Origin: a virus
Direction: 5' to 3' (one strand)
Virus record (IMG/VR): IMGVR_UViG_3300031823_000015
Span: 1-41,563 of that record
DNA: 41,563 nt
Shown: one piece after another, positions 2,003 through 41,563 of the stretch
Position numbering within the stretch: the first letter of the stretch is position 1
Layout of the letters: each line of letters begins with the position of its first letter
The notes under the pieces: generated by a model
What the model saw: only the letters and a program-made list of their open reading frames with translations
The model's database searches: none
What the model was told of the DNA's origin: nothing
Made by a program: the position numbers and the translations under genes

Positions 2003-2195
2003 CCTCTTTCCCCTCCTCGAACAGCGGCCCGGCCTCGACGGCGTGCGTCGCGTCCCACGCGTCGAGCACGGTCAGCCAGCGCCGCAGCTCCGCACCCGTG
2101 GCGCTCTGCCTCCCGTGCGTCTTGACCGTCGCCTCGGCGTGCGCGGCGGCGGCGCGCGCAATGCGCCGCAGGATCCCATGCTCGGTGAACCTCAC
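1989..2195 (-). CDS. Small hypothetical early protein
   Basis: A 68-aa mostly helical, charged protein (GILRRIARAAAAHAEATVK near the start, acidic end EEGKEDGRD). The GTG start at 2195 overlaps the stop of the lipoprotein gene in a GTGA, and the gene overlaps the ERF start by 14 bp, so it sits within a translationally coupled chain. No family is recognised. Confidence 0.6.
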   Translation of the reverse strand: MRFTEHGILRRIARAAAAHAEATVKTHGRQSATGAELRRWLTVLDAWDATHAVEAGPLFEEGKEDGRD

Positions 2196-2362
2196 GGGTG
2201 ACAGCTCGGATCGCCGGCGTGCTGGGCGCACCAGGTCTCGTGCGCGTCCTTTTGCGCCATCTGGTAGCCGACATAGCCGCCGATCATCAGCGGCACGCAG
2301 CCGCCCAACCCCGACATCACCAGAGCCGCCAGCAGCAAGCCGCGCGCAAATTTCCCGATCAT
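2192..2362 (-). CDS. Small predicted lipoprotein
   Basis: A 56-aa protein with a classic lipoprotein signal: MIGKFARG, a hydrophobic core (LLLAALVMSGLGG) and a lipobox LGG|C near residue 22. The mature part has a glycine-zipper-like segment (MIGGYVGYQM) and two more cysteines near the end (WCAQHAGDPSC). A ribosome site AGGAGGAGA precedes the ATG at 2362. Placement in an early phage operon, not a lysis or virion module, is consistent with a membrane-anchored superinfection-exclusion lipoprotein, but that role is inference. Confidence 0.72.
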   Translation of the reverse strand: MIGKFARGLLLAALVMSGLGGCVPLMIGGYVGYQMAQKDAHETWCAQHAGDPSCHP

Positions 2363-2586
2363 GGCGCGGTCTCCTCCTCGAGCGTCGGCTGGACGTGAGT
2401 GCAATCGAGGCACAGCGCATAGCCGCGCGGTTTGGGCGCCACCTCGGCGGTGAGGTCGAGCAGCTTGAACTCGCCGTTGTGGTACTCGCCCCAGGCGATG
2501 ACCTGGACCGCGAGCCGCCCCGAGCCGCAGCGCCGGCACCTGGCCCGGATGGGCTGCTGGCAGCTCTGTTGGATGTGCCCCATCAT
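2359..2586 (-). CDS. Small zinc-ribbon protein
   Basis: A 75-aa protein with two CxxC pairs, CRRCGSG near residue 17 and CLDCTH near residue 61. They frame a beta-rich segment (LAVQVIAWGEYHNGEFKLLDL) as in a zinc ribbon. The start is the ATG at 2586, which overlaps the preceding TGA (ATGA); a second ATG follows immediately. Likely a nucleic-acid or protein-binding ribbon; no family is assigned. Confidence 0.65.
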   Translation of the reverse strand: MMGHIQQSCQQPIRARCRRCGSGRLAVQVIAWGEYHNGEFKLLDLTAEVAPKPRGYALCLDCTHVQPTLEEETAP

Positions 2587-2714
2587 CCGATGGCCGCGAG
2601 AAAAAAAGCGAGCAGCAGCCAGATGACCGGGAGCGCCATGACGGCGCCCATCGCCAGGCGCAGCGTCCGCAGGCGCTCGCCCCGCCGTTGCGCTCGCGCG
2701 GCATCCCAACTCAT
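2583..2714 (-). CDS. Tiny single-span membrane protein
   Basis: A 43-aa protein with a basic N-terminal half (AARAQRRGERLRTLRL) and one membrane segment (about residues 23-43, AVMALPVIWLLLAFFLAAIG). The positive residues lie before the span. The ATG at 2714 overlaps the upstream TGA, and its own TGA overlaps the next ATG. Function unknown; small membrane proteins in early phage operons often affect infection by other phages. Confidence 0.6.
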   Translation of the reverse strand: MSWDAARAQRRGERLRTLRLAMGAVMALPVIWLLLAFFLAAIG

Positions 2715-2902
2715 TGCCGGTTCCCCAAGTGCCAGCCGCCGCAATGCGGGCAGCGATAGGCGGCGCGGGGGCGCTCGCCGCGGCGGCGGGCCGCCTTGCC
2801 GGCGCGCACCTGCACGCGGTGCGCGAGGGCCGGGCTGCGAAACCGTTTCTTGCCGGCGCACCCCGCCTGGCGGTGCCAGGCTTCTCCCGTAGCCCGGCTC
2901 AC
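2711..2902 (-). CDS. Small basic zinc-ribbon protein
   Basis: A 63-aa, strongly basic protein. A possible N-terminal cysteine (AGCAGKKR) precedes a C-terminal YRCPHCGGWHLGN, a CxxC-GxWH element common in small phage proteins of alphaproteobacteria. The GTG at 2902 overlaps the preceding stop (GTGA). A role in binding nucleic acid is plausible from charge and zinc motif but unproven. Confidence 0.65.
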   Translation of the reverse strand: MSRATGEAWHRQAGCAGKKRFRSPALAHRVQVRAGKAARRRGERPRAAYRCPHCGGWHLGNRQ

Positions 2903-3204
2903 CGGTGCGTCTCCGGCACCGGCTCGATCATCAGCCGATAGGTCTTTCCCGTGCCAAGAAGCTCGAAGACGAGCGTATGCCGGCCGCTCGCGACGTAATC
3001 GGTCGGGACCGATATATCGGCGCGGCGGGCGAACCGCAGCCCCTCGACCTCGAACACGCCCGCGCGCCGGATCGCGGCGGCAAAGGCGTCGGCGTAGCTG
3101 GTGATCCCGGCCAGTCGCCGCTGGTAGGCCTCGCGATCGCGCTGGCGCGCTTCGGGCGTGCCGTAGAGTGCGGCTTCCGCCGGCGACAGCCGCAGGTCGC
3201 TCAC
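2899..3204 (-). CDS. Hypothetical early protein
   Basis: A 101-aa protein starting at a GTG within a GTGA overlap (SDLRLSPAEAALYGTPEARQ). A helical first half is followed by beta-rich sequence (VFEVEGLRFARRADISVP). No catalytic motif or family is recognised. It is the second gene of the leftward early operon. Confidence 0.6.
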   Translation of the reverse strand: MSDLRLSPAEAALYGTPEARQRDREAYQRRLAGITSYADAFAAAIRRAGVFEVEGLRFARRADISVPTDYVASGRHTLVFELLGTGKTYRLMIEPVPETHR

Positions 3205-29737: not shown

Positions 29738-32731
29738 ATGGCCTCGAACCTGTCGATCGCGGTCCGCGCCGACACCGCCGAGGCGCGCGCCCAGCTCGCC
29801 CTCGTCCAGGCCGACGTCAAAGCGCTCGGCACCGCGTTGCGGCAGGCTGCGGCCGACGCCAGAAGCGGCGGCGGGATCGGCGCCAACGACAATTTGCGCC
29901 AGGCGGCAGGGCAATTCGAGGAGGCCCGCGCCAAGGCCTCGGCCTTGACACAGGAGCTGAACGGGGCCGCCACCGAGGGCTCGCTCCTCGCCCGCAGCTT
30001 TGCCAATGTCAAAGAAGAGGTCGAGCGCGTCCGCAGCCCGATCGACACCTTCCGGCAAGGGATGGCCGGCATCCTCGAGGTCACCGGGGCGGCCTTTGCC
30101 TTCGAGAAGATCTCCGAATGGGTCGAGGAGATCACCGAGGGCGCGGAGCGGACCAAGATCCTGGCGGAATCGCTCGGCACCAGCTCGGAACGCCTGTCGG
30201 AGTTTCAGAACATCTCGTTGCTCGCCGGCGGCGAGAGTCAAAACCTGATCCGCATCGTCACCCAGCTCGGGCACCAGCTCGAGGTCGGTCTCAACAAGCC
30301 GCTCTCCGACCAGGGCCAGGCGATCCGCGCCGCCGGCATCGACATGGCCGAGCTGAAAGAAGCGCTGCGGGACCCGATCGACACGATCGAGCTCTTGCGC
30401 CGGACCTGGCAGAACATGGCGGGGAGCGTCAACCGCCTCGACATCTTCCGCAGCCTCGTCGGGCCGCGCGGCATCACCCAGCTGGCACCCGTTCTGAGCC
30501 TGACCGCCGAGGAGTTTGAAAAGGTCAAGCAGGCGGCCGAGGCGAGCGGGGCCAATCTCAACGACGCGCAGATCGAAGCACTGTCGGACACCTGGGAAAA
30601 GGTCCACGAGCTCGAATTGGCCTTTACCGGGCTCAAATCGCACATCCTTCTCGACTTCAAGGAGCCGATCGACGCCACCACCACGTCGTTGAAGGCGTTT
30701 GTCGAGACGATTACGAATTCGGGCGCTGCCACCGCGGCGTTCAAGAGCTTTTTCGACGCGATCCACGGGATCATCGACGCGACCAAGACCGACATCGACA
30801 ATCTGAAGACGGTGTGGAACGCGTTCGCGAGCGGTTGGCAGCAGCTTCAAAACAATACGCTTCTGCAGCATCTGGGGATCGTCCCGCCCGCCAACGCGCC
30901 CTCGCTCGTCCCGGGGGTGTCGCCCTTGGGGTTGACGGACGCCGGGCGCCCCGCGGCACCCGCCGAGGTGAGCCTGCCCGAAGTTTCGGTGACGGCGCCG
31001 GCCCCGGCCGGGGCCTCGGGGCGCGAGGGCGCCTCGTTCGCCGGCAACGCGATCGCGAACCTCTCCGGCAACGCCGCAATCGTCGCCGACGCCCTCGCCA
31101 AGATCGGCGCGTCCGCCAACACCGTGGCGGGGGTTCTCGCCAATCTCAAGGCCGAGAGCGGCATCAGCCCGGAGGCCGTCAACCCGAGCGGCGCCACCGG
31201 GATCGCGCAGTGGGCCGGCGACCGGCTGGCGCAGCTCAAGGCCGCCGAAGGCCCGGCGTGGAACACGCTGCAGGGCCAGGTCGATTTTCTCGTGAAGGAG
31301 CTGCAAGGCAAGTTCGCCGGCGTCTTTCACGCCGCGAATGCCGCGGCCGACGCGGCGTCCGCCGCCAAAATCGTCTATTCCGGCTACGAAATCCCGGGGT
31401 CAAAGGACACGACGGGGCCGGCCCGCGAAGCGCTCGCCACCCAGATCGCGGCGGGCGGCGGGGTCGGGTCCAGCACCGGCGGCACCGCCGCGAGGTTCGA
31501 CCCCGAGGCCGGCCGCGTCGCGCGCGAGCAGCAATATGCCGAGCTCGAGGCGCAGATCAGGCAGGCCGAGTACCAGCAGGATTTCGCCGCCGCCCGCCAG
31601 CTCCTCGACAAGAAGCTCGCGATGCTCGCCGAGGACAAGGCCAGCACGGCCTCGGTCACCGCCGAAAAGGTGCGCCTCGACCACGAGGAGGTCGCGGCCG
31701 CGATCGAGCTCGCCCAGCAGAAATACACCTCGCTCAAAAGCGAGGACACCTCCTATCTCGCGGACTTCAAGGCCAACATGGCTCAGCTCGTCGCCGAGCA
31801 TAAGATTTCGACGCAGCAGGCGATCGGCTTTGAGATCGAGTACACCGCCAAGCTCTACGCCGAGGAGCGCCGCCGCCTCGAAATCATGATGGCGGACGAC
31901 CGGCTGACGGCGGCGCAAAAGCAGCGGCTCTATGACGAGCTCGTCGAGCTCGACGCGAGCTATACCGCCAAGATCAGCGAGGCCCAGGCGAAGACGGCGC
32001 AGGACACCGCGAAAAGCTGGCAGGAAAGCATCAAGCAGGTGTCGGACGCGTTCGCGAGCATGGCGACCGACGTCGTCCTGCGTACGAAGTCGATCGGCCA
32101 GGCGTTCGACCAATTGGCGCAAAGCCTCGTCAAGGACACGCTCAACAGCGCCTTCAAGAGCATTTTCAGCTCGGCGCTCGGGGTCGGCGGCGGTTCGGGC
32201 GGCGGCGTCGGCGGCGGGATTTTCGACAGCCTCGGCAAGGACATTTTCGGCGAGGGGCTCGCGGGGGCCGTCGGCAGCACTGGCGGCGGCGGCCTCTTGG
32301 GCTGGCTCTTCGGCGGCGCTTCGGGTGCGGCCGACCAGGACTTCTCGGGCGGCATCGGCGCAGCGGCCGATGTCGGCGGCGGCGGCCTCTTCAGCGGCCT
32401 CTTCGGCACCTTGTTCAAGGGCCTCGGCTCGCTCTTCGCCTTCTCGAAGGGCGGGATCGTGCCGTCGGCGGCGGGCGGCTGGGCCGTACCGCAGCTCGGG
32501 CCGGGAGGCACCCTGGCACAGCTGCACTCGAACGAGATGGTCTTGCCGGCGAATATCAGCCAGGGGCTGCAAGGCATGATCGCCAACGGCGGCGGCGGCA
32601 ACTCCTTTGGCATCAACATCAACGCGACCGATGCGGCGTCGGTGCAGCGGCTCTTCATGGCGAACGGCTCGGCGCTGGTCGCGGCATTGAACACTGCGAT
32701 CCGCCGCGGCTCGATGCTGACGCCCGGCTGA
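29738..32731 (+). CDS. Tape measure protein with tail-lysozyme domain
   Basis: A 997-aa protein that sets tail length. The N-terminal part is coiled-coil (AVRADTAEARAQLALVQAD). Residues about 440-500 carry a phage-tail-lysozyme pattern (VAGVLANLKAESGISPEAVN, then TGIAQWAGDRL) with a candidate catalytic Glu near 471. Next comes a charged coiled region (about 585-790) and a Gly-rich hydrophobic block near 810-910. It would help the tail pass the cell wall. Located directly after the chaperone genes. Confidence 0.92.
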   Translation: MASNLSIAVRADTAEARAQLALVQADVKALGTALRQAAADARSGGGIGANDNLRQAAGQFEEARAKASALTQELNGAATEGSLLARSFANVKEEVERVRSPIDTFRQGMAGILEVTGAAFAFEKISEWVEEITEGAERTKILAESLGTSSERLSEFQNISLLAGGESQNLIRIVTQLGHQLEVGLNKPLSDQGQAIRAAGIDMAELKEALRDPIDTIELLRRTWQNMAGSVNRLDIFRSLVGPRGITQLAPVLSLTAEEFEKVKQAAEASGANLNDAQIEALSDTWEKVHELELAFTGLKSHILLDFKEPIDATTTSLKAFVETITNSGAATAAFKSFFDAIHGIIDATKTDIDNLKTVWNAFASGWQQLQNNTLLQHLGIVPPANAPSLVPGVSPLGLTDAGRPAAPAEVSLPEVSVTAPAPAGASGREGASFAGNAIANLSGNAAIVADALAKIGASANTVAGVLANLKAESGISPEAVNPSGATGIAQWAGDRLAQLKAAEGPAWNTLQGQVDFLVKELQGKFAGVFHAANAAADAASAAKIVYSGYEIPGSKDTTGPAREALATQIAAGGGVGSSTGGTAARFDPEAGRVAREQQYAELEAQIRQAEYQQDFAAARQLLDKKLAMLAEDKASTASVTAEKVRLDHEEVAAAIELAQQKYTSLKSEDTSYLADFKANMAQLVAEHKISTQQAIGFEIEYTAKLYAEERRRLEIMMADDRLTAAQKQRLYDELVELDASYTAKISEAQAKTAQDTAKSWQESIKQVSDAFASMATDVVLRTKSIGQAFDQLAQSLVKDTLNSAFKSIFSSALGVGGGSGGGVGGGIFDSLGKDIFGEGLAGAVGSTGGGGLLGWLFGGASGAADQDFSGGIGAAADVGGGGLFSGLFGTLFKGLGSLFAFSKGGIVPSAAGGWAVPQLGPGGTLAQLHSNEMVLPANISQGLQGMIANGGGGNSFGININATDAASVQRLFMANGSALVAALNTAIRRGSMLTPG

Positions 32732-32744
32732 GAGCCCCCGGCTG

Positions 32745-33935
32745 ATGACCGATGTCGGCATCATGGCGATCGCCGCCGGCGGCCTCGCGATCAGCCCGCT
32801 GTCCGGCAGCCCGCTCACGATCCTCCCCGGCGTCGGGTGGAGCGTCACCAAGGCGCCGACGATGCAGACGCGCATCCAGCGCGCGGTCTCCGGCCGCGAG
32901 CTGCGGCTGCAGGATTACCCCTACCCGCTGTGGCAGTTCTCGCTGACTTTCGAGGTGCTGCGCGACCGTTGGGACAGCCGCGGCCGGGGTTTTGGGGTCG
33001 TCGGCAACTACGACGAACTGCGGACCCTCTTCGGGTTCTACCTCGCCTGCGGCGGCGCCTTTGGCACGTTTCTGTTCGACGACCCGAGCGACGACCAGGT
33101 CACGGGGCAGCCGTTGCCGCTGGCGACGAGCTATGTCTCGGCCTCGTTCCCGGCCGCGGGCGGCAGCGGCTACAACATCGGCGACCAGCTCTCGCCCGCC
33201 GGCGGATCGCCGCCGCTTGCGGCCTCGCTGATCGTCAACAGCGTCGGCGGCGGGGGCGCGATCACCAATCTCGGGCCGAGCCTCGGCGGCATCTATTACA
33301 CCGTGCCCGGCACGAGCGGCGTGCCGTTGACGACGGTGACGGGCGGCGGCTCGGGCGCCACCGCGAACCTGACCTGGGTAACGAGCGTCCAATTGCAGCG
33401 CGGGCTTGGTGTCGGCCCGTTTTTCAACGAGCCGATCACCGCCCCCAACAAGGTCGCCGCGCTTTATTTCGCCGGTGTGCCGCAGATCACATTGGTCAAC
33501 ACCGGGATCGTCGCGGGCGGCGGCGGCTACAACATCGGCGACCAGCTCTCGCCGACGATCGCAGGGCCGCCGCTCGCCGCCTCGCTCTTTGTCCAGAGTG
33601 TGAGCGGCGGCGCCGTCACCTCGCTCGGCGTCTCGAATGGCGGGCTCTATCTCGGGACGCCACCCTCCGCCGCAGTGCCGTTCACCAGCGTCACCGGCAG
33701 CGGCTCGGGGTGCACCGCGAACCTGTTGTGGAGCAATGTCGCCGGCTGGCCGGTCGATCCCGCAACCGGCCTCGTGTCGCTGCCGCAGCCCTTTGTCGGC
33801 AGCCAGCCGGCGCTGTCGGCGGATTTCTCGTATTTCTTCCGATGCCGCTTTGTCGACGACAGCAACAGCTTTGAGAACTTCATGCTGCAATTGTGGCAGC
33901 TTAAAAAGTTGGCGTTTATTTCGGTGCTGCCGTGA
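32745..33935 (+). CDS. DUF2460 distal tail protein with two inserted repeat domains
   Basis: A 396-aa protein. Flanks match DUF2460/GTA gp12-like distal tail proteins (FSLTFEVLRDRWDSRGRGFG, then NYDELRTLFGFYLACGGAFG followed by FLFDDP, and at the end FFRCRFVDDSNSFENFMLQL). Inserted in the fold are two about 73-residue repeats starting GYNIGDQLSP (near residues 137-211 and 258-329), each ending in a GSGxTANLxW motif. These make it about twice family length. It connects tube and baseplate. Confidence 0.82.
   Translation: MTDVGIMAIAAGGLAISPLSGSPLTILPGVGWSVTKAPTMQTRIQRAVSGRELRLQDYPYPLWQFSLTFEVLRDRWDSRGRGFGVVGNYDELRTLFGFYLACGGAFGTFLFDDPSDDQVTGQPLPLATSYVSASFPAAGGSGYNIGDQLSPAGGSPPLAASLIVNSVGGGGAITNLGPSLGGIYYTVPGTSGVPLTTVTGGGSGATANLTWVTSVQLQRGLGVGPFFNEPITAPNKVAALYFAGVPQITLVNTGIVAGGGGYNIGDQLSPTIAGPPLAASLFVQSVSGGAVTSLGVSNGGLYLGTPPSAAVPFTSVTGSGSGCTANLLWSNVAGWPVDPATGLVSLPQPFVGSQPALSADFSYFFRCRFVDDSNSFENFMLQLWQLKKLAFISVLP
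33150..33735 (+). repeat. Two tandem-type repeats inside the distal tail gene
   Basis: Copy 1 spans about 33158-33378 and copy 2 about 33515-33732. Both begin with near-identical GGCTACAACATCGGCGACCA and CTCTCGCC stretches. The high identity at the start suggests recent duplication. Encoded repeats look like small beta units common in phage fibres. Confidence 0.7.
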
Positions 33936-34792
33936 AGCAGGCGTCCTCGACCCTGATTGCGCTACTGAACGGCGGCGCCAAGTTCCAGATGGCCGACCTC
34001 TACACCTTTACGCTGCAGGGCGGCACGGTCCTGCGCTATTCGGGTGCGCTGACCCAAATCGTCGATTTCGCCACCGGGCGGGTCTTTCCGCTCGGCCCCA
34101 AATTCGAGCGCTCGCTGATCAATACCGTCATCGGGACCCAGGTCGACCAGCTCGACGTCAAGATTTACCCGACCGCAACCGACACGATCGGCGCTACGCC
34201 GTTTTTGGAGGCGGCATGGACCGGCGCGCTCGACGGCGCGCTCCTACAGGTCGAGCGCGCGTTTTTCGCCGCCGGCTGGGGCGACACCAGCCCGGGAACG
34301 GTGGTGCTCTTCGCCGGCCGGGTGTCGGACCTCGACTGCACCCGCTCCGGCATCGACATGAAATGCCGCTCGCACCTCGAATTGCTCAATATCCCGATGC
34401 CGCGACGGCTCTACCAGGCGGCGTGCAACCACGTCTTTGGCGACGCGATGTGCCAGTTCTCGCGGCCGAGCCTGGCGCTGACGTTTGGCGCCGGCGCCGG
34501 CTCGTCGCAGACCTCGATCAATGGCGCGCCGGTGACGACGACCCCGTTCGCGCAAGGATCGATCAGCGGCAAGAGCGGCGCCAATTCGGGGCAGACTCGC
34601 ACGATCTTCGGGTTTCAGTCGGGGGGCAGCATCAGCGTCAAGCTCGCCTTTTTGTCGCCGGTGCTGACCGGCGACCAGTTCGAGATCCTGCCGGGCTGCG
34701 ATCACATGCTCGCGACCTGCACCAACACCTTCAACAACGCCGTCCATTTCGGCGGCATGCCGTTCATCCCGCCTCCGGAGACCGCCGTATGA
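33932..34792 (+). CDS. DUF2163 / BR0599-type tail protein (GTA gp13-like)
   Basis: A 286-aa protein. KFQMADLYTFTLQGGTVLRY, then RSGIDMKCRSHLELLNIPMP, and a Cys-containing end (CNHVFGDAMCQFSR, CDHMLATCTN) match the DUF2163 baseplate family, whose cysteines bind an iron-sulfur-like or structural centre in some members. GTG start overlaps the previous stop. Normally followed directly by an NlpC/P60 gene; here a different gene intervenes. Confidence 0.85.
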   Translation: MKQASSTLIALLNGGAKFQMADLYTFTLQGGTVLRYSGALTQIVDFATGRVFPLGPKFERSLINTVIGTQVDQLDVKIYPTATDTIGATPFLEAAWTGALDGALLQVERAFFAAGWGDTSPGTVVLFAGRVSDLDCTRSGIDMKCRSHLELLNIPMPRRLYQAACNHVFGDAMCQFSRPSLALTFGAGAGSSQTSINGAPVTTTPFAQGSISGKSGANSGQTRTIFGFQSGGSISVKLAFLSPVLTGDQFEILPGCDHMLATCTNTFNNAVHFGGMPFIPPPETAV

Positions 34793-35865
34793 CGACCCCG
34801 GTGCTGCACGTCTTTACGGCGCGGTTCAACCCGCTGCGCTGGCGCCAGCCGCAGCGGCACTATCTCGACTGGGCCCATCGCATGCGCGATCTCGGCGCCG
34901 AGGTCACGGTCGTCGAATGCGCCTATGGCGAGGCGCCGTGGGTCTGCGCAATTCCCGGCGTCGTCCACCACATCGGGGTGCGCGCCGATTCCTGGGCGTG
35001 GGCCAAGGAATGCCTGCTCAACCTCGGCATCCAGCGCCGCCCGGAGGCGCAATACGTCTGCTGGGCGGACAGCGATGTTTTCCCGCGCCGCAACGACTGG
35101 GTCGAGGCCACGCTCGACGCATTGCAGCACTACCACGTGGTGCAGCCGTGGGAGACCTGCTACGACCTCGGCCCCGGCGACAGCCACGCGCATGTCTGGC
35201 GCTCGTTCGCGCGCCAATACCTGCACGGCCACCCGATCGTCGTCGGCGAGGGCGAGGACTTTCACAAATTTTGGGGCGGCGAGCACGACTACCCGCATAC
35301 CGGCTATTGCTGGGCGGCCAAGCGCTCGATGCTGAACGAGGTGGGCGGGCTCTTCGAATACGGCGGGATGGGTGCCGCCGACCACCACCAGGCGGTGGCG
35401 ATGCTGGGCCGCGTCAAGAGCTCGTTCCCGAAGACGATCTCGCCCGCTTACCGCGTCCTCCTCGAGGCCTGGGAAAAGCGCGCTACGCACGCGGTCAACG
35501 GCCGGATCGGCTATGTGGCGGGCACGATCGAGCACCGCTTTCACGGTGCGAAGCAAAACCGCCAATATTGGGACCGCTGGCAGATGTTTCTGCGCCACGG
35601 GTTCGACCCGATGACGGACCTGAAGCGCAACACCTGGGGGGTGCTCGAATTCGCCGGCAACAAGCCGGCACTCGAGCTCGAATGGGACCAGTATCTGCGG
35701 ATGCGCTGGGAAGACGACAATGGCGAGGGGTTCGCCGCGTTTCACCGGCCGGGCCACCCGCCGGCACCCCCGCCGCGCGACCCGCCGGTGTCGCATCCCC
35801 ACCACCCGCCACACCGCCATCATCACCCCGAGCCACCGCACCGCCGCCATCCCGGCCGTGACTGA
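34789..35865 (+). CDS. Glycosyltransferase-like protein embedded in the tail module
   Basis: A 358-aa protein with the pattern of a GT-A-type glycosyltransferase: RHYLDWAHRMRDLGAEVTVV near residue 22-41, then YVCWADSDVFPRRNDWVEAT near 87-106. The DSD is the usual metal-binding DxD. ALQHYHVVQPWETCYDLGPG follows. The end is a His/Pro-rich tail (HPHHPPHRHHH). It is inserted between the DUF2163 and NlpC genes but coupled to both by overlaps. It could modify host surface sugar or virion. Substrate unknown. Confidence 0.7.
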   Translation: MTTPVLHVFTARFNPLRWRQPQRHYLDWAHRMRDLGAEVTVVECAYGEAPWVCAIPGVVHHIGVRADSWAWAKECLLNLGIQRRPEAQYVCWADSDVFPRRNDWVEATLDALQHYHVVQPWETCYDLGPGDSHAHVWRSFARQYLHGHPIVVGEGEDFHKFWGGEHDYPHTGYCWAAKRSMLNEVGGLFEYGGMGAADHHQAVAMLGRVKSSFPKTISPAYRVLLEAWEKRATHAVNGRIGYVAGTIEHRFHGAKQNRQYWDRWQMFLRHGFDPMTDLKRNTWGVLEFAGNKPALELEWDQYLRMRWEDDNGEGFAAFHRPGHPPAPPPRDPPVSHPHHPPHRHHHPEPPHRRHPGRD

Positions 35866-36283
35866 CCAGCGCCGCGCCGCGGTCGTTGCCGAGGCCCAAA
35901 CCTGGCTCAAGACACCCTACCACCACATGGGCCGGGTAAAGGGTGCCGGTGCGGACTGCCTCACACTCCTCGCCGAAGTCTATGAGCGCGCCGGGGTGCT
36001 GCCGCATATCGAGCTGCCGTACTATCCGCCCGATTGGCACCTGCACCGCGGCGAGGAGCGTTACGCCGACGGCCTCCTCGCCTATGCGCGCGAGATCGAC
36101 CCGCCGCCGCAGCCGGCCGATATCGCGCTGTGGCGCTATGGGCGCTGTTTTGCCCATGCCGCGATCGTCGTCCTCTGGCCCACGATCGTCCACGCCCAGG
36201 CCGATGCGCGGCTCGTCTGTTGGGGGGACGCGACGCAGGGCTCGCTCGCCTGCCGCGCGGTGCGGTTTTTCGACCCGTTTTAG
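35858..36283 (+). CDS. NlpC/P60 cell-wall hydrolase of the tail tip
   Basis: A 141-aa protein of the NlpC/P60 cysteine hydrolase family (GTA gp14-like). Catalytic Cys34 is in GAGADCLTLLAEVYERAG; the catalytic His is in CFAHAAIVVLW. It cuts peptide stems of peptidoglycan during infection. GTG start at 35858 overlaps the glycosyltransferase end by 8 bp. Next gene starts immediately after the stop. Confidence 0.9.
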   Translation: MTDQRRAAVVAEAQTWLKTPYHHMGRVKGAGADCLTLLAEVYERAGVLPHIELPYYPPDWHLHRGEERYADGLLAYAREIDPPPQPADIALWRYGRCFAHAAIVVLWPTIVHAQADARLVCWGDATQGSLACRAVRFFDPF

Positions 36284-37999
36284 ATGACCAACATCCTGGG
36301 GATCGGCCCCAACGCCAAGCAGCAGCAGCTCGCGGGCTCGCTGCGGTTCCAGACCTCGCAAGCGGGCAGCGTCATCCCGCTCGTCTACGGCACCACCCGG
36401 ATCAGCCCGAACGTCCTCGACTACCAGGATTTCGAGGCCGTGGGCGGCAGCGCCGGAAAGGGCAAGGGCGGCGCCGGCGGCAGCGCCGGCAAAGCCGGCA
36501 AGTCGTCGCAGACGATGTACTCGGCCTCGGTCATCCTCGGCCTCTGCCAGGGGCCGATAACCCAGTTCGGGGAGGTCTGGTACAACAAGAGCGTCGGAGC
36601 ACTCCTCGACCTCTTGGGGCTGTCGACCAAAAATCTCGGCACCGACGGGCAGCCGGCCGACCCCTATTGGGTGACCAACCACGCGCCCAACGCCATCGGC
36701 TATTCCGGCACCGCCAACATCACGCTCGACAAGTACAACCTCGGCGCCTCGGCCTCGCTGCCGAATTTCACGTTCGAGGTCTATGGCATCGGCTCGTCGA
36801 CCTGGCTCAATGGCGCCGACGCCAACCCGGCCTTTATCGTCAGCGATTTTCTGACCAATGCGCGTTACGGCGCCGGGTTTCCGGCGGCGAACCTCGACAG
36901 CCTGACGAGCTATTCGGAGTATTGCACGGCGTTGGGGGTGGCGCTGTCGCCGTCGATCGACACCCAGATACCGGCACAGCAGCAGCTCGCCGACATCGCA
37001 AAAATCACCAACTCGGCGATCGTGTGGTCGGGGGGCCTACTAAAGATCATCCCCTATGGGGACATGCCGCTCAGCACGTCGTTCACGCTGATCACGGTCG
37101 CCGGAGCCGTCGCCGGCGGCGATACGATCACCGCGACCTTTACCGGCGCCGGTCTCGGCTCGCCGGTCGCGGTCTCCTATACGGCCGGCGCCGCCAACGT
37201 CAACGCCGACACCCTGTACATGAGCTCGTTCACCGGCGCGCTCGCCGGCCAGATCAACGCGAGCGGCCTCCAGGCGTTCGGCGTGCACGCCGGTGTGGCG
37301 CCGAACGGGCTGATGATCTTCGACACTTCCGGCACCGGCACATTGGCGGTCGCGGTCACCTTTTCCGGCGCCGGCGGCGAAACCGCCACGATCAGCCCGC
37401 TCGGGACCTATTCCTGGCAGCCCTACACGACCCCGGTCTACAGCCTCGACGACGACGATTTCATCGTCCAGGAATCGACGGTCGGCTCGTATCTCGGGGT
37501 TACCCCCGGAACCGCGGCATTGCGCCAAGGGGCGACCCCGGTCACCGGCGGCTTTACCGACGACCCGGTGCACGTGCAGCGCTCCTCGCCGGCCGACGCC
37601 CCGAACTGGGTCGAGATCGAGTGCGTCGACCGCTCGAACTCGTACAACAAATGGCCGGTCGTCGCCTTCGACCAGGGGGCGATCGACCTCTACGGGGTCC
37701 GCAAAGACAGCAGCGTCAAGGGCAACGCGATCGTCGACGTGCAGCATGTCGGCCCGGTCGTGGCCCAGCTGGTGTTGCAGCGCAATCTCTATTACCGCAA
37801 TACCTACACCTTCAATCTCGGCTGGAAATTCTGCCTCCTCGAGCCGATGGATTTGGTGCAGCTGAGCGACCCCTACCTCGGCCTCGACAATCTGACGGTG
37901 CGGATCACCGCGGTGAGCGAGGACGAAGAGGGCACCTTGGCCATCACCGCCGAGGATTTTTTCGGCGTGCCGGCGGCCGTGCAATACCCGCAGGCCTGA
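36284..37999 (+). CDS. Tail hub / baseplate protein, first part (GTA gp15-like)
   Basis: A 571-aa protein. The start (SLRFQTSQAGSVIPLVYGTT) and a Gly/Lys-rich loop near residues 50-75 are typical of TipJ/GTA gp15-like hub proteins. A beta block near 265-380 looks like an inserted fold. The end (LLEPMDLVQLSDPYLGLDN, then ITAVSEDEEGTLAITAEDFF) is the usual hub-domain signature. It forms the central tail tip that contacts the cell. Confidence 0.85.
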   Translation: MTNILGIGPNAKQQQLAGSLRFQTSQAGSVIPLVYGTTRISPNVLDYQDFEAVGGSAGKGKGGAGGSAGKAGKSSQTMYSASVILGLCQGPITQFGEVWYNKSVGALLDLLGLSTKNLGTDGQPADPYWVTNHAPNAIGYSGTANITLDKYNLGASASLPNFTFEVYGIGSSTWLNGADANPAFIVSDFLTNARYGAGFPAANLDSLTSYSEYCTALGVALSPSIDTQIPAQQQLADIAKITNSAIVWSGGLLKIIPYGDMPLSTSFTLITVAGAVAGGDTITATFTGAGLGSPVAVSYTAGAANVNADTLYMSSFTGALAGQINASGLQAFGVHAGVAPNGLMIFDTSGTGTLAVAVTFSGAGGETATISPLGTYSWQPYTTPVYSLDDDDFIVQESTVGSYLGVTPGTAALRQGATPVTGGFTDDPVHVQRSSPADAPNWVEIECVDRSNSYNKWPVVAFDQGAIDLYGVRKDSSVKGNAIVDVQHVGPVVAQLVLQRNLYYRNTYTFNLGWKFCLLEPMDLVQLSDPYLGLDNLTVRITAVSEDEEGTLAITAEDFFGVPAAVQYPQA

Positions 38000-38006
38000 C
38001 CCCATA

Positions 38007-38828
38007 ATGGGTGTCAAGAGCCTCGGCGCCGGCATCGGCACGCCTGCGTTTTTCGCGCGCCAAGCGGCCGCACCCACCACCTCGGTCCCGGCCTACAATG
38101 CTGCCGCACCGAGCGTGAACATGCCCTTTTTTGTCGAGCCGACGCAGCAATTGCTGGCAGCGCTCGGCGTCGCCGGGCCGGCATTGATCGTCGGGCTCAG
38201 CGGCGGCCCCGCCGGCGCCTACAGCCCGCTGTGGGGCGGGGCCGAGGTGTGGGCATCGCTCGACGGCACGAATTACGGCCAGCCTTTTGCCGACGACGCC
38301 TTTTTCGGGGTGTCGGCGATGGGGCTCACCACCGCGGCACTCGCGGCCTATGGCGGGGTCAACCCCGACACCGCCGACACGCTCGCGGTCGACCTCAGCC
38401 AGTCGAGGGGCACGCTCGCGAGCGTCAGCCCGACGAGTGCAGCCGCCTTTGTCAGCTTGTGCGCGGTGCAGGCGACCGGCGGCCCAATCGAGTTTCTGGC
38501 GTTCGAGACCGCGAGCCTGGTCGGCGCCAGCGCCTACCACCTGACGACCCTCTATCGCGGCCTCTACGGGACGGATGCCGCGAGCCACGCGCTGGGCGCG
38601 CAGTTCGTCTATCTCGGCAGCGGCGAATATTTCGCGCAGCCCTTGCCGGCGCAATACACGGGGGTGCCGTTGGAATTCAAGTTCCCGTCGTTCAACACGA
38701 CCGGCGGCGGCCTGCAATCGCTTGCCGCGGCGACGGCCTATTCCTACACCCCGGCCGGGTCCGGCAGCCTGCCGGGGCCGGGCTTTCAAACCGACGTCAT
38801 CACCACCAACACGAATATCAGCCTGTGA
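38007..38828 (+). CDS. Tail hub protein, second part (host-specificity region)
   Basis: A 273-aa protein. It continues the GTA gp15-type hub: PSVNMPFFVEPTQQLLAALG, then GGAEVWASLDGTNYGQPF and YHLTTLYRGLYGTDAASHAL. In GTA and many phages these are one long polypeptide; here they are two genes separated by 7 bp. It is likely to bind host surface structures. Confidence 0.78.
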   Translation: MGVKSLGAGIGTPAFFARQAAAPTTSVPAYNAAAPSVNMPFFVEPTQQLLAALGVAGPALIVGLSGGPAGAYSPLWGGAEVWASLDGTNYGQPFADDAFFGVSAMGLTTAALAAYGGVNPDTADTLAVDLSQSRGTLASVSPTSAAAFVSLCAVQATGGPIEFLAFETASLVGASAYHLTTLYRGLYGTDAASHALGAQFVYLGSGEYFAQPLPAQYTGVPLEFKFPSFNTTGGGLQSLAAATAYSYTPAGSGSLPGPGFQTDVITTNTNISL

Positions 38829-38837
38829 CGTGATGAT

Positions 38838-39098
38838 GTGGCGGCGAATGCGTTCTTGCGGATCTTCGAGCCTGCGGGCGGCGGGAGCTTCAACGCCACC
38901 TTGCGGCCCCGGCCGCAAGACGGGGAGACGTGGCGCTTTACCCTGATTGGCGCCAATGCGGCCCAAGTCGTCGTGACGCTGACCCCCAATACCGGGCAGA
39001 CGATAAACCTCGGCTCCGCCGGGATGCCGCTCACCGGGCACGGGGCGACCCGCACCCTCGTGTGGAACGCGCAATTATCAAGCTGGGTCGGCGGGTGA
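38838..39098 (+). CDS. Small beta-rich tail tip protein
   Basis: An 86-aa protein: AFLRIFEPAGGGSFNATLRP and VVVTLTPNTGQTINLGSAG. It starts at GTG 38838. Two overlapping ATG codons at 38833/38836 belong to other frames. Probably an accessory of the receptor-binding complex. No specific family. Confidence 0.5.
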   Translation: MAANAFLRIFEPAGGGSFNATLRPRPQDGETWRFTLIGANAAQVVVTLTPNTGQTINLGSAGMPLTGHGATRTLVWNAQLSSWVGG

Positions 39099-39101
39099 CC
39101 G

Positions 39102-39986
39102 ATGATCAGGCTCCTCCTCGCCATCGTGCTGTCGCTCGCGGCGGCGGGCGCCGCATGCGCGCAACAGGTGCCATTCGACCGCACCTGGCTCTATCCCGGC
39201 GGCGCCAGCTATGCCGCCGGGCTCGGCGACGACAACAAGGTCATCTCGGCGCTCAACGCCGGCGGCACCCTGACCGTCACCCTGCCCTCGACGACGGCCT
39301 TGGCGGCGAGCGGCTGGCAGATCGCGGTCGAGAACGACGCGGCGCATACCGTCACGGTCCAGGTCAACGGCACCGCCGGCGGCCATATCCTCTACCCGAC
39401 GACATCAGGCGGGGCTTCGGCGACCTCGTTTTCGACCGCCGCCGGGAACAACGAGATCGCGGTCGTCGAATATGACGGCAGCGGCAATTTCCGGATCGTC
39501 GGGGCGACCCCGGCAACCGCATTGGCGCTGGGCTTCTTCTCGGGCGGCAGCATTCCGGCGGCGGCCGATCTCTTGGGCAGCAGCGGGTCTGCTTTTGGCG
39601 GGGTGACGGTCGGCACCGGGTTGTCGCTGAGCGGGGCGTTTGGCTCGCAGACATTGTCGGCGACGGGCGGCGGGGTCGCGTGGTCGACCTCGGTCTACAC
39701 GCTGACGACGACCCCCCTCGTCCTGCCGGCGACCAACTACCTGATCGAAATCGTCAGGCAGAGCGTCGCCGCCCCGATCACGGTCGATCTCGCCGCCTCG
39801 CCGCCGGCGAATTTCGTGCAGTGCGTAAAGGACGGCGGCAACAACTTCCAGGCCAACGCCGCCACCGTCAAGACCACCGACGGCACCGCGATCGACGCCG
39901 TCGCGGGCTCGACCGGCTACGTGATGAACCAGGCCCGGCAATTCGGATGCTTCATTTTCGATGGAACGCAATGGGATATAATCTGA
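39102..39986 (+). CDS. Fibre-like protein with Sec signal peptide
   Basis: A 294-aa protein. The N-terminus (MIRLLLAIVLSLAAAGAACA, then QQ) is a clear signal peptide with AxA-type cleavage site. The mature part is beta-rich with repeats of TxTVTLPSTTAL and SGSAFGGVTVGTGLSLSG. The C-terminal segment (CVKDGGNNFQANAATVKTTD ... FDGTQWDII) matches the end of the 40319 gene product. Structural genes of cytoplasmic assembly normally lack signals; this is unusual. It may be a fibre or an exported adhesin. Confidence 0.68.
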   Translation: MIRLLLAIVLSLAAAGAACAQQVPFDRTWLYPGGASYAAGLGDDNKVISALNAGGTLTVTLPSTTALAASGWQIAVENDAAHTVTVQVNGTAGGHILYPTTSGGASATSFSTAAGNNEIAVVEYDGSGNFRIVGATPATALALGFFSGGSIPAAADLLGSSGSAFGGVTVGTGLSLSGAFGSQTLSATGGGVAWSTSVYTLTTTPLVLPATNYLIEIVRQSVAAPITVDLAASPPANFVQCVKDGGNNFQANAATVKTTDGTAIDAVAGSTGYVMNQARQFGCFIFDGTQWDII

Positions 39987-40315
39987 GGCTCGCTTTGGCC
40001 GCGTCCGCAATTTCGTTACTCGCGCTCACCCCGGCCGCGCGTGCCGGTGGCGCGGCCGAGTTTCCGCCGCCGATGTGCGCGCCCGGCACCGCGACCGTGA
40101 TCTGCCAGCTGATGATCGAGCGCAACAGCGTCTCCGACGAGCTGGCGCTGAGCGAGACCCGGCGCGTCGACGAGGCCAAATCGGCGCAGGCGAGTGCGGC
40201 CGCACTCGCCGATTACTGGCGGCATTATGTCATCGGCGCCGCGGCCAAGGCCGATTACTGGGACCGCCTCTGGGGCTGGCTCGCCGAGCATTTCCACCAT
40301 CGCCGGGGCCGCTGA
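39971..40315 (+). CDS. Small secreted protein
   Basis: A 114-aa protein with a signal peptide (RLALAASAISLLALTPAARA), two cysteines just after it (MCAPGTATVIC), and a helical remainder (RVDEAKSAQASAAALADYWR, then WDRLWGWLAEHFHHRRGR). It overlaps the preceding gene by 16 bp. It could be a periplasmic chaperone, a spanin-like factor or accessory of the fibres; I cannot decide. Confidence 0.6.
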   Translation: MGYNLRLALAASAISLLALTPAARAGGAAEFPPPMCAPGTATVICQLMIERNSVSDELALSETRRVDEAKSAQASAAALADYWRHYVIGAAAKADYWDRLWGWLAEHFHHRRGR

Positions 40316-40318
40316 GCC

Positions 40319-41386
40319 ATGCGCATCGGACGGCACCTCGTAGCGGCGGCGCTGATCGGGTCGCTGATCAGCACCGCCACAACCCCGGCGGCGGCGTCCT
40401 ATATGGGGACGCCCCCGCTGCTCGTCGTCAACGGCGGCTCGGGTTTGACGACCGCGACGGCACACGCGGTCTTGACCGGCGAAGGAACCTCCGCCTTTGG
40501 CCAGGTCGGCCCCGGCGGGGCCGGCACCTTGCTCGCCGGTGTGGCGAGCGCCGACCCGACCTTCACCTCGACCCCGACCCTGGGGGCCAACGGCGGCACC
40601 GGCGGCACCTTGACGCTCGAGGGCTCGACGAGCGGCTCCGGCGTCATCCAGGTCGCCGCCGCGGCCGGCGCCGGCATCGTCTTCCAGCTGCCCTCGGCAA
40701 ACGGCTCCTCCGGCAACGCGCTCACCACCAACGGCGCCGGCGTCACGAGCTGGAGCCCGGTCGGCACGCTGACCTCGGTCACCTGCGGCACCGGGCTCAG
40801 CGGCGGCACGATCACCACGACCGGCACCTGCTCGATTACCGCCCCGGTTACGGTGGCGCTCGGCGGCACCGGCTCGACATCGGCCTCGGGGACGGCGCTC
40901 GACAACATCACCGGGTTTGCCGGGACCGGCCTCGTCAACCGCACCGGCGCCGGCACCTATTCGTTTATGGCGACCAACGCCATCGCCTTTACCGGGGGCA
41001 CGATCGACGGCGTCACGATCGGCGGCACCACGCCGGCGGCGGGCCACTTCACGACCCTGAGCACGAGCGGGATCACGACCTTTGGCTCGGGCGAGATCGG
41101 GCCGGTACGGGTCGTCACCGCGTCGGGAGCGGTGACGATGGCGACCACCGACAACACGATCGAGGTCGACAAGACAACCGGGGCCGCGACCACCGTAAAC
41201 CTGGTGTCGTCGCCGACCTCTGGCACCCGGCTCTGCGTCAAGGATGGAAAAGGCGACGCGTCCGCCAACAACATCACGCTCTCGCCTGCCGCGGGGAATA
41301 TCGACGGCGCCACCACTTTCGTCATGAACCAGAATTACCAGGACACCTGTATTCAATACGACGGAACGAAGTGGATCATCTTGTAG
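40319..41386 (+). CDS. Tail-fibre-like repeat protein with Sec signal peptide
   Basis: A 355-aa protein with a signal peptide (LVAAALIGSLISTATTPAAA) and a mature Gly/Thr/Ser-rich beta-repeat body (ANGGTGGTLTLEGSTSGSG, GGTGSTSASGTAL, GGTTPAAGHFTTLSTSG), a style common in fibres and adhesins. The C-terminal part (CVKDGKGDASANNITLSPAA ... QYDGTKWIIL) resembles the end of the 39102 product and ends similarly to many rhizobial-phage fibres. Function probably adsorption. Confidence 0.7.
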   Translation: MRIGRHLVAAALIGSLISTATTPAAASYMGTPPLLVVNGGSGLTTATAHAVLTGEGTSAFGQVGPGGAGTLLAGVASADPTFTSTPTLGANGGTGGTLTLEGSTSGSGVIQVAAAAGAGIVFQLPSANGSSGNALTTNGAGVTSWSPVGTLTSVTCGTGLSGGTITTTGTCSITAPVTVALGGTGSTSASGTALDNITGFAGTGLVNRTGAGTYSFMATNAIAFTGGTIDGVTIGGTTPAAGHFTTLSTSGITTFGSGEIGPVRVVTASGAVTMATTDNTIEVDKTTGAATTVNLVSSPTSGTRLCVKDGKGDASANNITLSPAAGNIDGATTFVMNQNYQDTCIQYDGTKWIIL

Positions 41387-41404
41387 TGCCTGCGGCATGA
41401 GCTT

Positions 41405-41563
41405 ATGCGCTATGTATTCACGGCACTGGTGGCGCTCGTCGCCGGCGCACAAGCGGCGCGCGCCGAATTCGACGGCATCGTAAGGGTCCCCAACAACGCG
41501 GCGCTCGCCGCCCTCAAATCGACGCAGGCGGCATGGGTCGAACGGCTCGGCTTTACGACGATC
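41405..41563 (+). CDS. Fourth signal-peptide fibre-like gene (partial, runs off the right edge)
   Basis: From ATG 41405 the frame stays open to the window end (53 codons): a signal peptide (MRYVFTALVALVAGAQAARA) and then FDGIVRVPNNAALAALKST, WVERLGFTTI. The VPNNAALAAL and RLGF pattern matches the beginning of tailspike-like proteins of rhizobial prophages. Product and length unknown. Confidence 0.6.
   Translation, partial: MRYVFTALVALVAGAQAARAEFDGIVRVPNNAALAALKSTQAAWVERLGFTTI

Follow-up and report, generated by a model that had tools for sequence, protein, structure and literature searches.

The right end of a virus record of 41,563 bases (IMGVR_UViG_3300031823_000015; the whole stretch analyzed, hereinafter the window) carries four neighboring genes, A to D, with leaders of the Sec/signal-peptidase-I type, and, judged from sequence, their products are very probably exported. 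These signal peptide (SP) genes appear to be the first part of a late block encoding fiber- or tailspike-like proteins. Under the explanation we favor, to which we give a somewhat better than even chance, the proteins would be made alongside the tail proteins, be carried across the inner membrane by the host Sec machinery, lose their leader, fold in the periplasm with disulfides introduced by the host Dsb system and be freed at lysis together with the virions. Outside the cell they would act as putative auxiliary adhesins or depolymerases beside the virion's own SP-less receptor-binding protein, for example by covering or trimming receptors on debris and neighboring cells, or by docking onto released virions. 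The parts of this scheme with support in the sequence are the signal peptides, cysteine pairing, fiber modules, recurrence and the packing of the genes in one direction with the tail genes.

Genes A to D lie behind a GTA-like tail-tip module, which comprises DUF2460, a phiJL001 Gp84-type baseplate hub, a two-ORF tail-tip protein and an Rcc01698-like C-terminus (Table 1). They point in the same direction as this module and follow each other at a spacing of 3 to 18 nt or with an overlap of 16 nt, as between the end of gene A and gene B. A search for sigma-70-like promoters, the only type covered, gave none in 32000-41563. The two tail-tip ORFs, 36284-37999 and 38007-38828, are in different frames in both the window and its near-identical relative G001, and correspond to one ORF of 864-891 aa in L022 and L023. 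The tail module also includes an ORF for a 358-aa glycosyltransferase-like protein without a Pfam match (34789-35865), and a similar ORF is found in L024 at 2070-3179.

Table 1. Genes and domains at the right end of the window (positions in the window)
Feature	Coordinates	Strand	Remarks
Tail-tip (megatron / central fiber J-like) protein	36284..38828	+	two ORFs; no SP
86-aa SP-less protein	38838..39098	+	between tail tip and first SP gene; no family
SP fiber-like protein A	39102..39986	+	294 aa; residues 1-20 signal peptide
C-terminal domain of protein A	39732..39983	+	cysteine codons at 39822 and 39948
SP protein B	39971..40315	+	114 aa; residues 1-25 signal peptide; two cysteines
SP fiber-like protein C	40319..41386	+	355 aa; residues 1-26 signal peptide
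C-terminal domain of protein C as folded	41081..41383	+	confident from about 41141; cysteine codons 41234, 41348
SP fiber-like protein D (partial)	41405..41563	+	complete in G001: 762 aa, 10 cysteines

All four leaders combine a positive n-region, an h-region and an A-x-A cleavage site, as demanded of Sec/signal-peptidase-I substrates by our own rule set. The likely cleavage sites (slash), chosen with a preference for A-x-A, are MIRLLLAIVLSLAAAGAACA/QQ in A (39102), MGYNLRLALAASAISLLALTPAARA/GG in B (39971), MRIGRHLVAAALIGSLISTATTPAAA/SY in C (40319) and MRYVFTALVALVAGAQAARA/EF in D (41405). The score from this rule set, which is distinct from SignalP, is 6.9-8.7 for A-D as against 6.1-8.5 for PhoA, MalE, OmpA and LamB. 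None of 75 control phage proteins without signal peptides passes the rule at its annotated start, nor does any window structural gene in 17490-38828 at its listed start. In phage Bcep781, 3 of the 65 listed genes pass, namely gp25 (small and lipoprotein-like), gp40 ("hypothetical membrane protein") and gp49 (a tail fiber). An earlier note had described four fiber-like genes with clear signal peptides and A-x-A sites; the leaders are confirmed on all four, and the fiber-like character for 39102, 40319 and 41405, whereas the small protein B (39971) has no family match, lacks fiber or spike modules and is probably helical. We can only guess that it might be a periplasmic fiber chaperone.

The extent of the block becomes apparent in G001 (IMGVR_UViG_3300031753_000008; 59,946 bases), which is 98% identical to the window over the SP-gene region, with too few substitutions for a comparison between the leader and mature parts. 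It completes gene D and continues with a fifth SP gene, whose 1233-aa product contains a PF12708 pectate-lyase beta-helix (E 7e-14), and with further SP genes for proteins of 128 and 990 aa. Thus, G001 has seven SP genes in one late region and none among the upstream structural and core genes. The mature parts of the seven proteins, taken over the window and G001, contain 2, 2, 4, 10, 16, 2 and 10 cysteines. The 990-aa protein (L018, 10895-13867), with its 10 cysteines, has no family or PDB match and is possibly an exported enzyme. G001 also carries integrase/recombinase-like genes. Its record stops at base 59946 within a portal-like gene that an ORF at base 5 seems to continue, and may represent a circularly permuted, nearly complete genome.

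Fiber or spike modules found in these proteins include repeats, a beta-helix and a connector-type domain. The N-terminal domain of protein A is repeated in the 1233-aa protein of G001 and is also present in L022. Protein C consists, after its signal peptide, of glycine/threonine-rich repeats followed by a C-terminal domain, and has four cysteines in its mature part. As the earlier note had stated, two of the genes, 39102 and 40319, have a C-terminal domain in common; the two copies are 36% identical and two of their cysteine positions line up, a pair that never occurs complete in the other 42 aligned copies. The predicted fold of the protein C domain (pLDDT 92-98 over the domain) places its cysteines on strands E50-55 and E88-93, and among solved structures it best matches the N-terminal region of TSP4 from phage CBA120 and a baseplate protein from a Klebsiella phage, and further down the list T4 gp9. 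Full-length P0003 and P0004 matched nothing in the phage collection, in Pfam above the cut-off, in PHROGs above chance level or in PDB by sequence. We rejected the cysteine pair of this domain as the sole marker of SP proteins, since SP copies in the soil phage L160 have no cysteine there.

The same trait is seen in more distant phages. In L022, whose tail tip is 69% identical, a 1013-aa SP protein is encoded directly behind the tail tip and shares the repeated domain with gene 39102. Gene D matches an ORF of Shewanella phage QDWS and Bcep781 gp49 (NP_705672; Bcep43 gp48, Bcep1 gp51), the latter over a stretch of 46 aa with 54% identity. Like the window proteins, gp49 is fiber-like (692 aa), has a signal peptide and 14 cysteines in its mature part, and is encoded in the tail operon; unlike them, it is the product of a single gene rather than an array. 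Its depositors annotated it as "possible tail fiber; possible signal peptide domain", a remark for which we found no follow-up paper in the open-licence literature. The corresponding Bcep43 gene (L078; NC_005342, 1062-3135) was deposited as two joined pieces, and in comparison with Bcep781 gp49 the A-run in its leader appears different and the frame is broken there, reflecting either phase variation or a sequencing error.

A search with the QDWS N-terminus recovered 36 viral loci; nearly all of those with the QDWS N-terminal family have a signal peptide, and loci that share only the QDWS repeat, with other N-termini, have none. QDWS gene 23 itself (L036; OK094664, 7461-9524) is annotated from an internal start, its full ORF encoding 687 aa with a signal peptide. 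As a side observation, OK094664 and OP650936 ("Hujiaoplasma phage zrk29-1", with a Tenericutes host) agree in length (47,902) and in their match identities, and one of the two host assignments is probably wrong. Further SP fiber-like genes are found in named prophages of Paraburkholderia, Caballeronia and Burkholderia, and in BcepC6B (gp19) and Xanthomonas phage PBR31 (gp35). The last two encode short SP fiber-like proteins, with an SP-less tailspike gene directly before and lysis genes directly after; they differ from the window in having one such gene each, with other repeats and another C-terminal domain. The soil phage L160/G003 has seven fiber-block genes in a row whose leaders are clear or probable; of its 55 ORFs, five are strict SP calls, all of them located in this 10-kb fiber block. 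Among its SP fiber genes lies one for a 228-aa SP protein with a KTSC domain (E 3e-7; L160, 2957-3640). The suggestion of the earlier note that the trait recurs is therefore borne out by unrelated phages, namely Bcep781, BcepC6B, PBR31, QDWS, the Paraburkholderia/Caballeronia prophages and the soil phage; of its further proposal of a distinct system, what stands is a system-like pattern, drawn from the very probable export and this recurrence.

An independent indication of export comes from the cysteines. Gram-negative exported proteins prefer an even number of cysteines, owing to disulfides, and this preference has been used as a filter (PMC7678975). Among 48 non-redundant SP proteins, 42 have an even cysteine count and none is cysteine-free (binomial p 5e-8), as against 20 of 52 core proteins (Fisher p 3e-7) and 27 of 60 SP-less fibers (Fisher p 3e-6). 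The 48 proteins are not fully independent, many of them sharing modules, and with stretches homologous to already counted proteins masked the figure is 24 of 29 (p 3e-4). A search of genome contigs for a host, made with the tail-tip protein of the window phage, gave no match. Because this cysteine signature is that of disulfide-bonded exported proteins, the signal peptides are probably used. Cysteine density was dropped as a discriminator in favor of parity, as SP-less beta-helix spikes can also be cysteine-rich (9 in BcepC6B gp18, 9 in L193 and 6 in PBR31 gp34). No support was drawn from Acinetobacter phage Loki, whose dsbA phenotype acts through the capsule.

The reading closest to the favored one, raised in the earlier note as fibers assembled outside, is that the virion is completed outside the cytoplasm, the SP proteins being true virion fibers that are exported, folded in the periplasm and attached to tails after lysis. 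This corresponds to the docking branch of the favored explanation (export, periplasmic folding and release), so that the probabilities of the two overlap, and taken by itself we regard it as a serious if tentative possibility. It accounts for the use of the same modules as in virion fibers and for the location of the genes directly behind the tail tip. The domain fold, too, matches CBA120 TSP4 and T4 gp9, both of which, like T4 gp10, serve for the attachment of other fibers. In the prophage L189, an SP beta-helix-like protein comes after a 249-aa protein that is anchor-only and similar to the PBR31 tailspike N-terminus, which gives the impression of a spike that was split off. Against this, no known virion-anchor domain was found on the mature N-termini of the SP proteins, and the same phages have SP-less fibers or spikes: BcepC6B gp18, PBR31 gp34, Bcep781 gp31, QDWS_25 and those of the prophages L193 and L195. 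Because these named phages encode a separate SP-less fiber or tailspike, the SP proteins are probably additional to the receptor-binding protein of the virion. Proteins of L160 and L060 retain an N-terminal module that is also found at the start of SP-less fibers. The idea that SP fibers are decoys with the specificity of the SP-less ones was discarded, as the two show no sequence similarity within one phage (best E 0.08).

The earlier note had also proposed exported adhesins of the lysogen or surface receptors that block or assist phage. A role of this kind in lysogenic conversion, with the proteins serving as adhesins (on the surface or secreted) or blocking receptors, would agree with exported proteins bearing adhesion modules, with the integrase/recombinase-like genes of G001 and with the example of lambda, where the exported Lom adjoins the fiber genes. 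We nevertheless regard it as improbable. The genes are tightly and co-directionally packed behind the tail tip with no sigma-70-like promoter site between them, seven large fibers in a row would be costly to a lysogen, and the same trait is present in Bcep781, for which no integrase is found among 66 listed features. The late tail-gene position, the lysis genes that come next in BcepC6B and PBR31 and the lack of a listed integrase in Bcep781 make expression in the lytic cycle likelier than a surface role in the lysogen, and the SP-less fibers or tailspikes of the named phages likewise speak against an adhesin of the lysogen only.

It is still less probable that the leader, instead of signaling export, stays uncleaved and serves as a hydrophobic N-terminus for anchoring or trimerizing a cytoplasmic virion fiber; the cytoplasm is the normal place of assembly for virion proteins, but the leaders, which differ between phages, have the positive n-region, h-region and A-x-A site, and the even-cysteine signature also argues against it. 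Miscalled start codons, leaving the leaders untranslated, are very unlikely: later in-frame starts do exist (M29 of 40319 and a GTG at codon 23 of 39102), but they would create unusually long gaps, whereas the called starts overlap the preceding gene or come 3-18 nt after its stop, and the leaders are kept across divergent homologs.

Returning to auxiliary proteins freed at lysis, several known systems share individual features with the block. CBA120 likewise encodes several spikes in a row in its branched tailspike cluster, and the TSP4 cluster and T4 gp9/gp10 resemble the window proteins in the fold of the shared C-terminal domain; these are not known to carry signal peptides. Conversion proteins of the lambda Lom/Bor type are similarly exported and encoded near tail-fiber genes; unlike the window proteins, they are not fiber-like and are expressed in the lysogen. 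Signal-peptide and SAR endolysins provide a precedent for late phage proteins using host Sec (PMC6116005), with the difference that they are lytic enzymes and not fibers. In a search of open-licence papers, we found no description of an exported fiber-like protein class.

Host range is set by the tail fibers and spikes, whose folding is generally placed in the cytoplasm. If our explanation is true, phages would use host Sec and Dsb for part of their adhesion equipment, and host dsbA would be a possible phage factor. It is conceivable, albeit speculative, that many Gram-negative phages make a second set of fibers in the periplasm by means of host Sec and Dsb, which virions collect on exit, and that this has been overlooked as the genes are filed as hypothetical. 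The explanation would likewise account for many unassigned late genes, and would draw attention to secreted depolymerases missed in gene calling through wrong starts.
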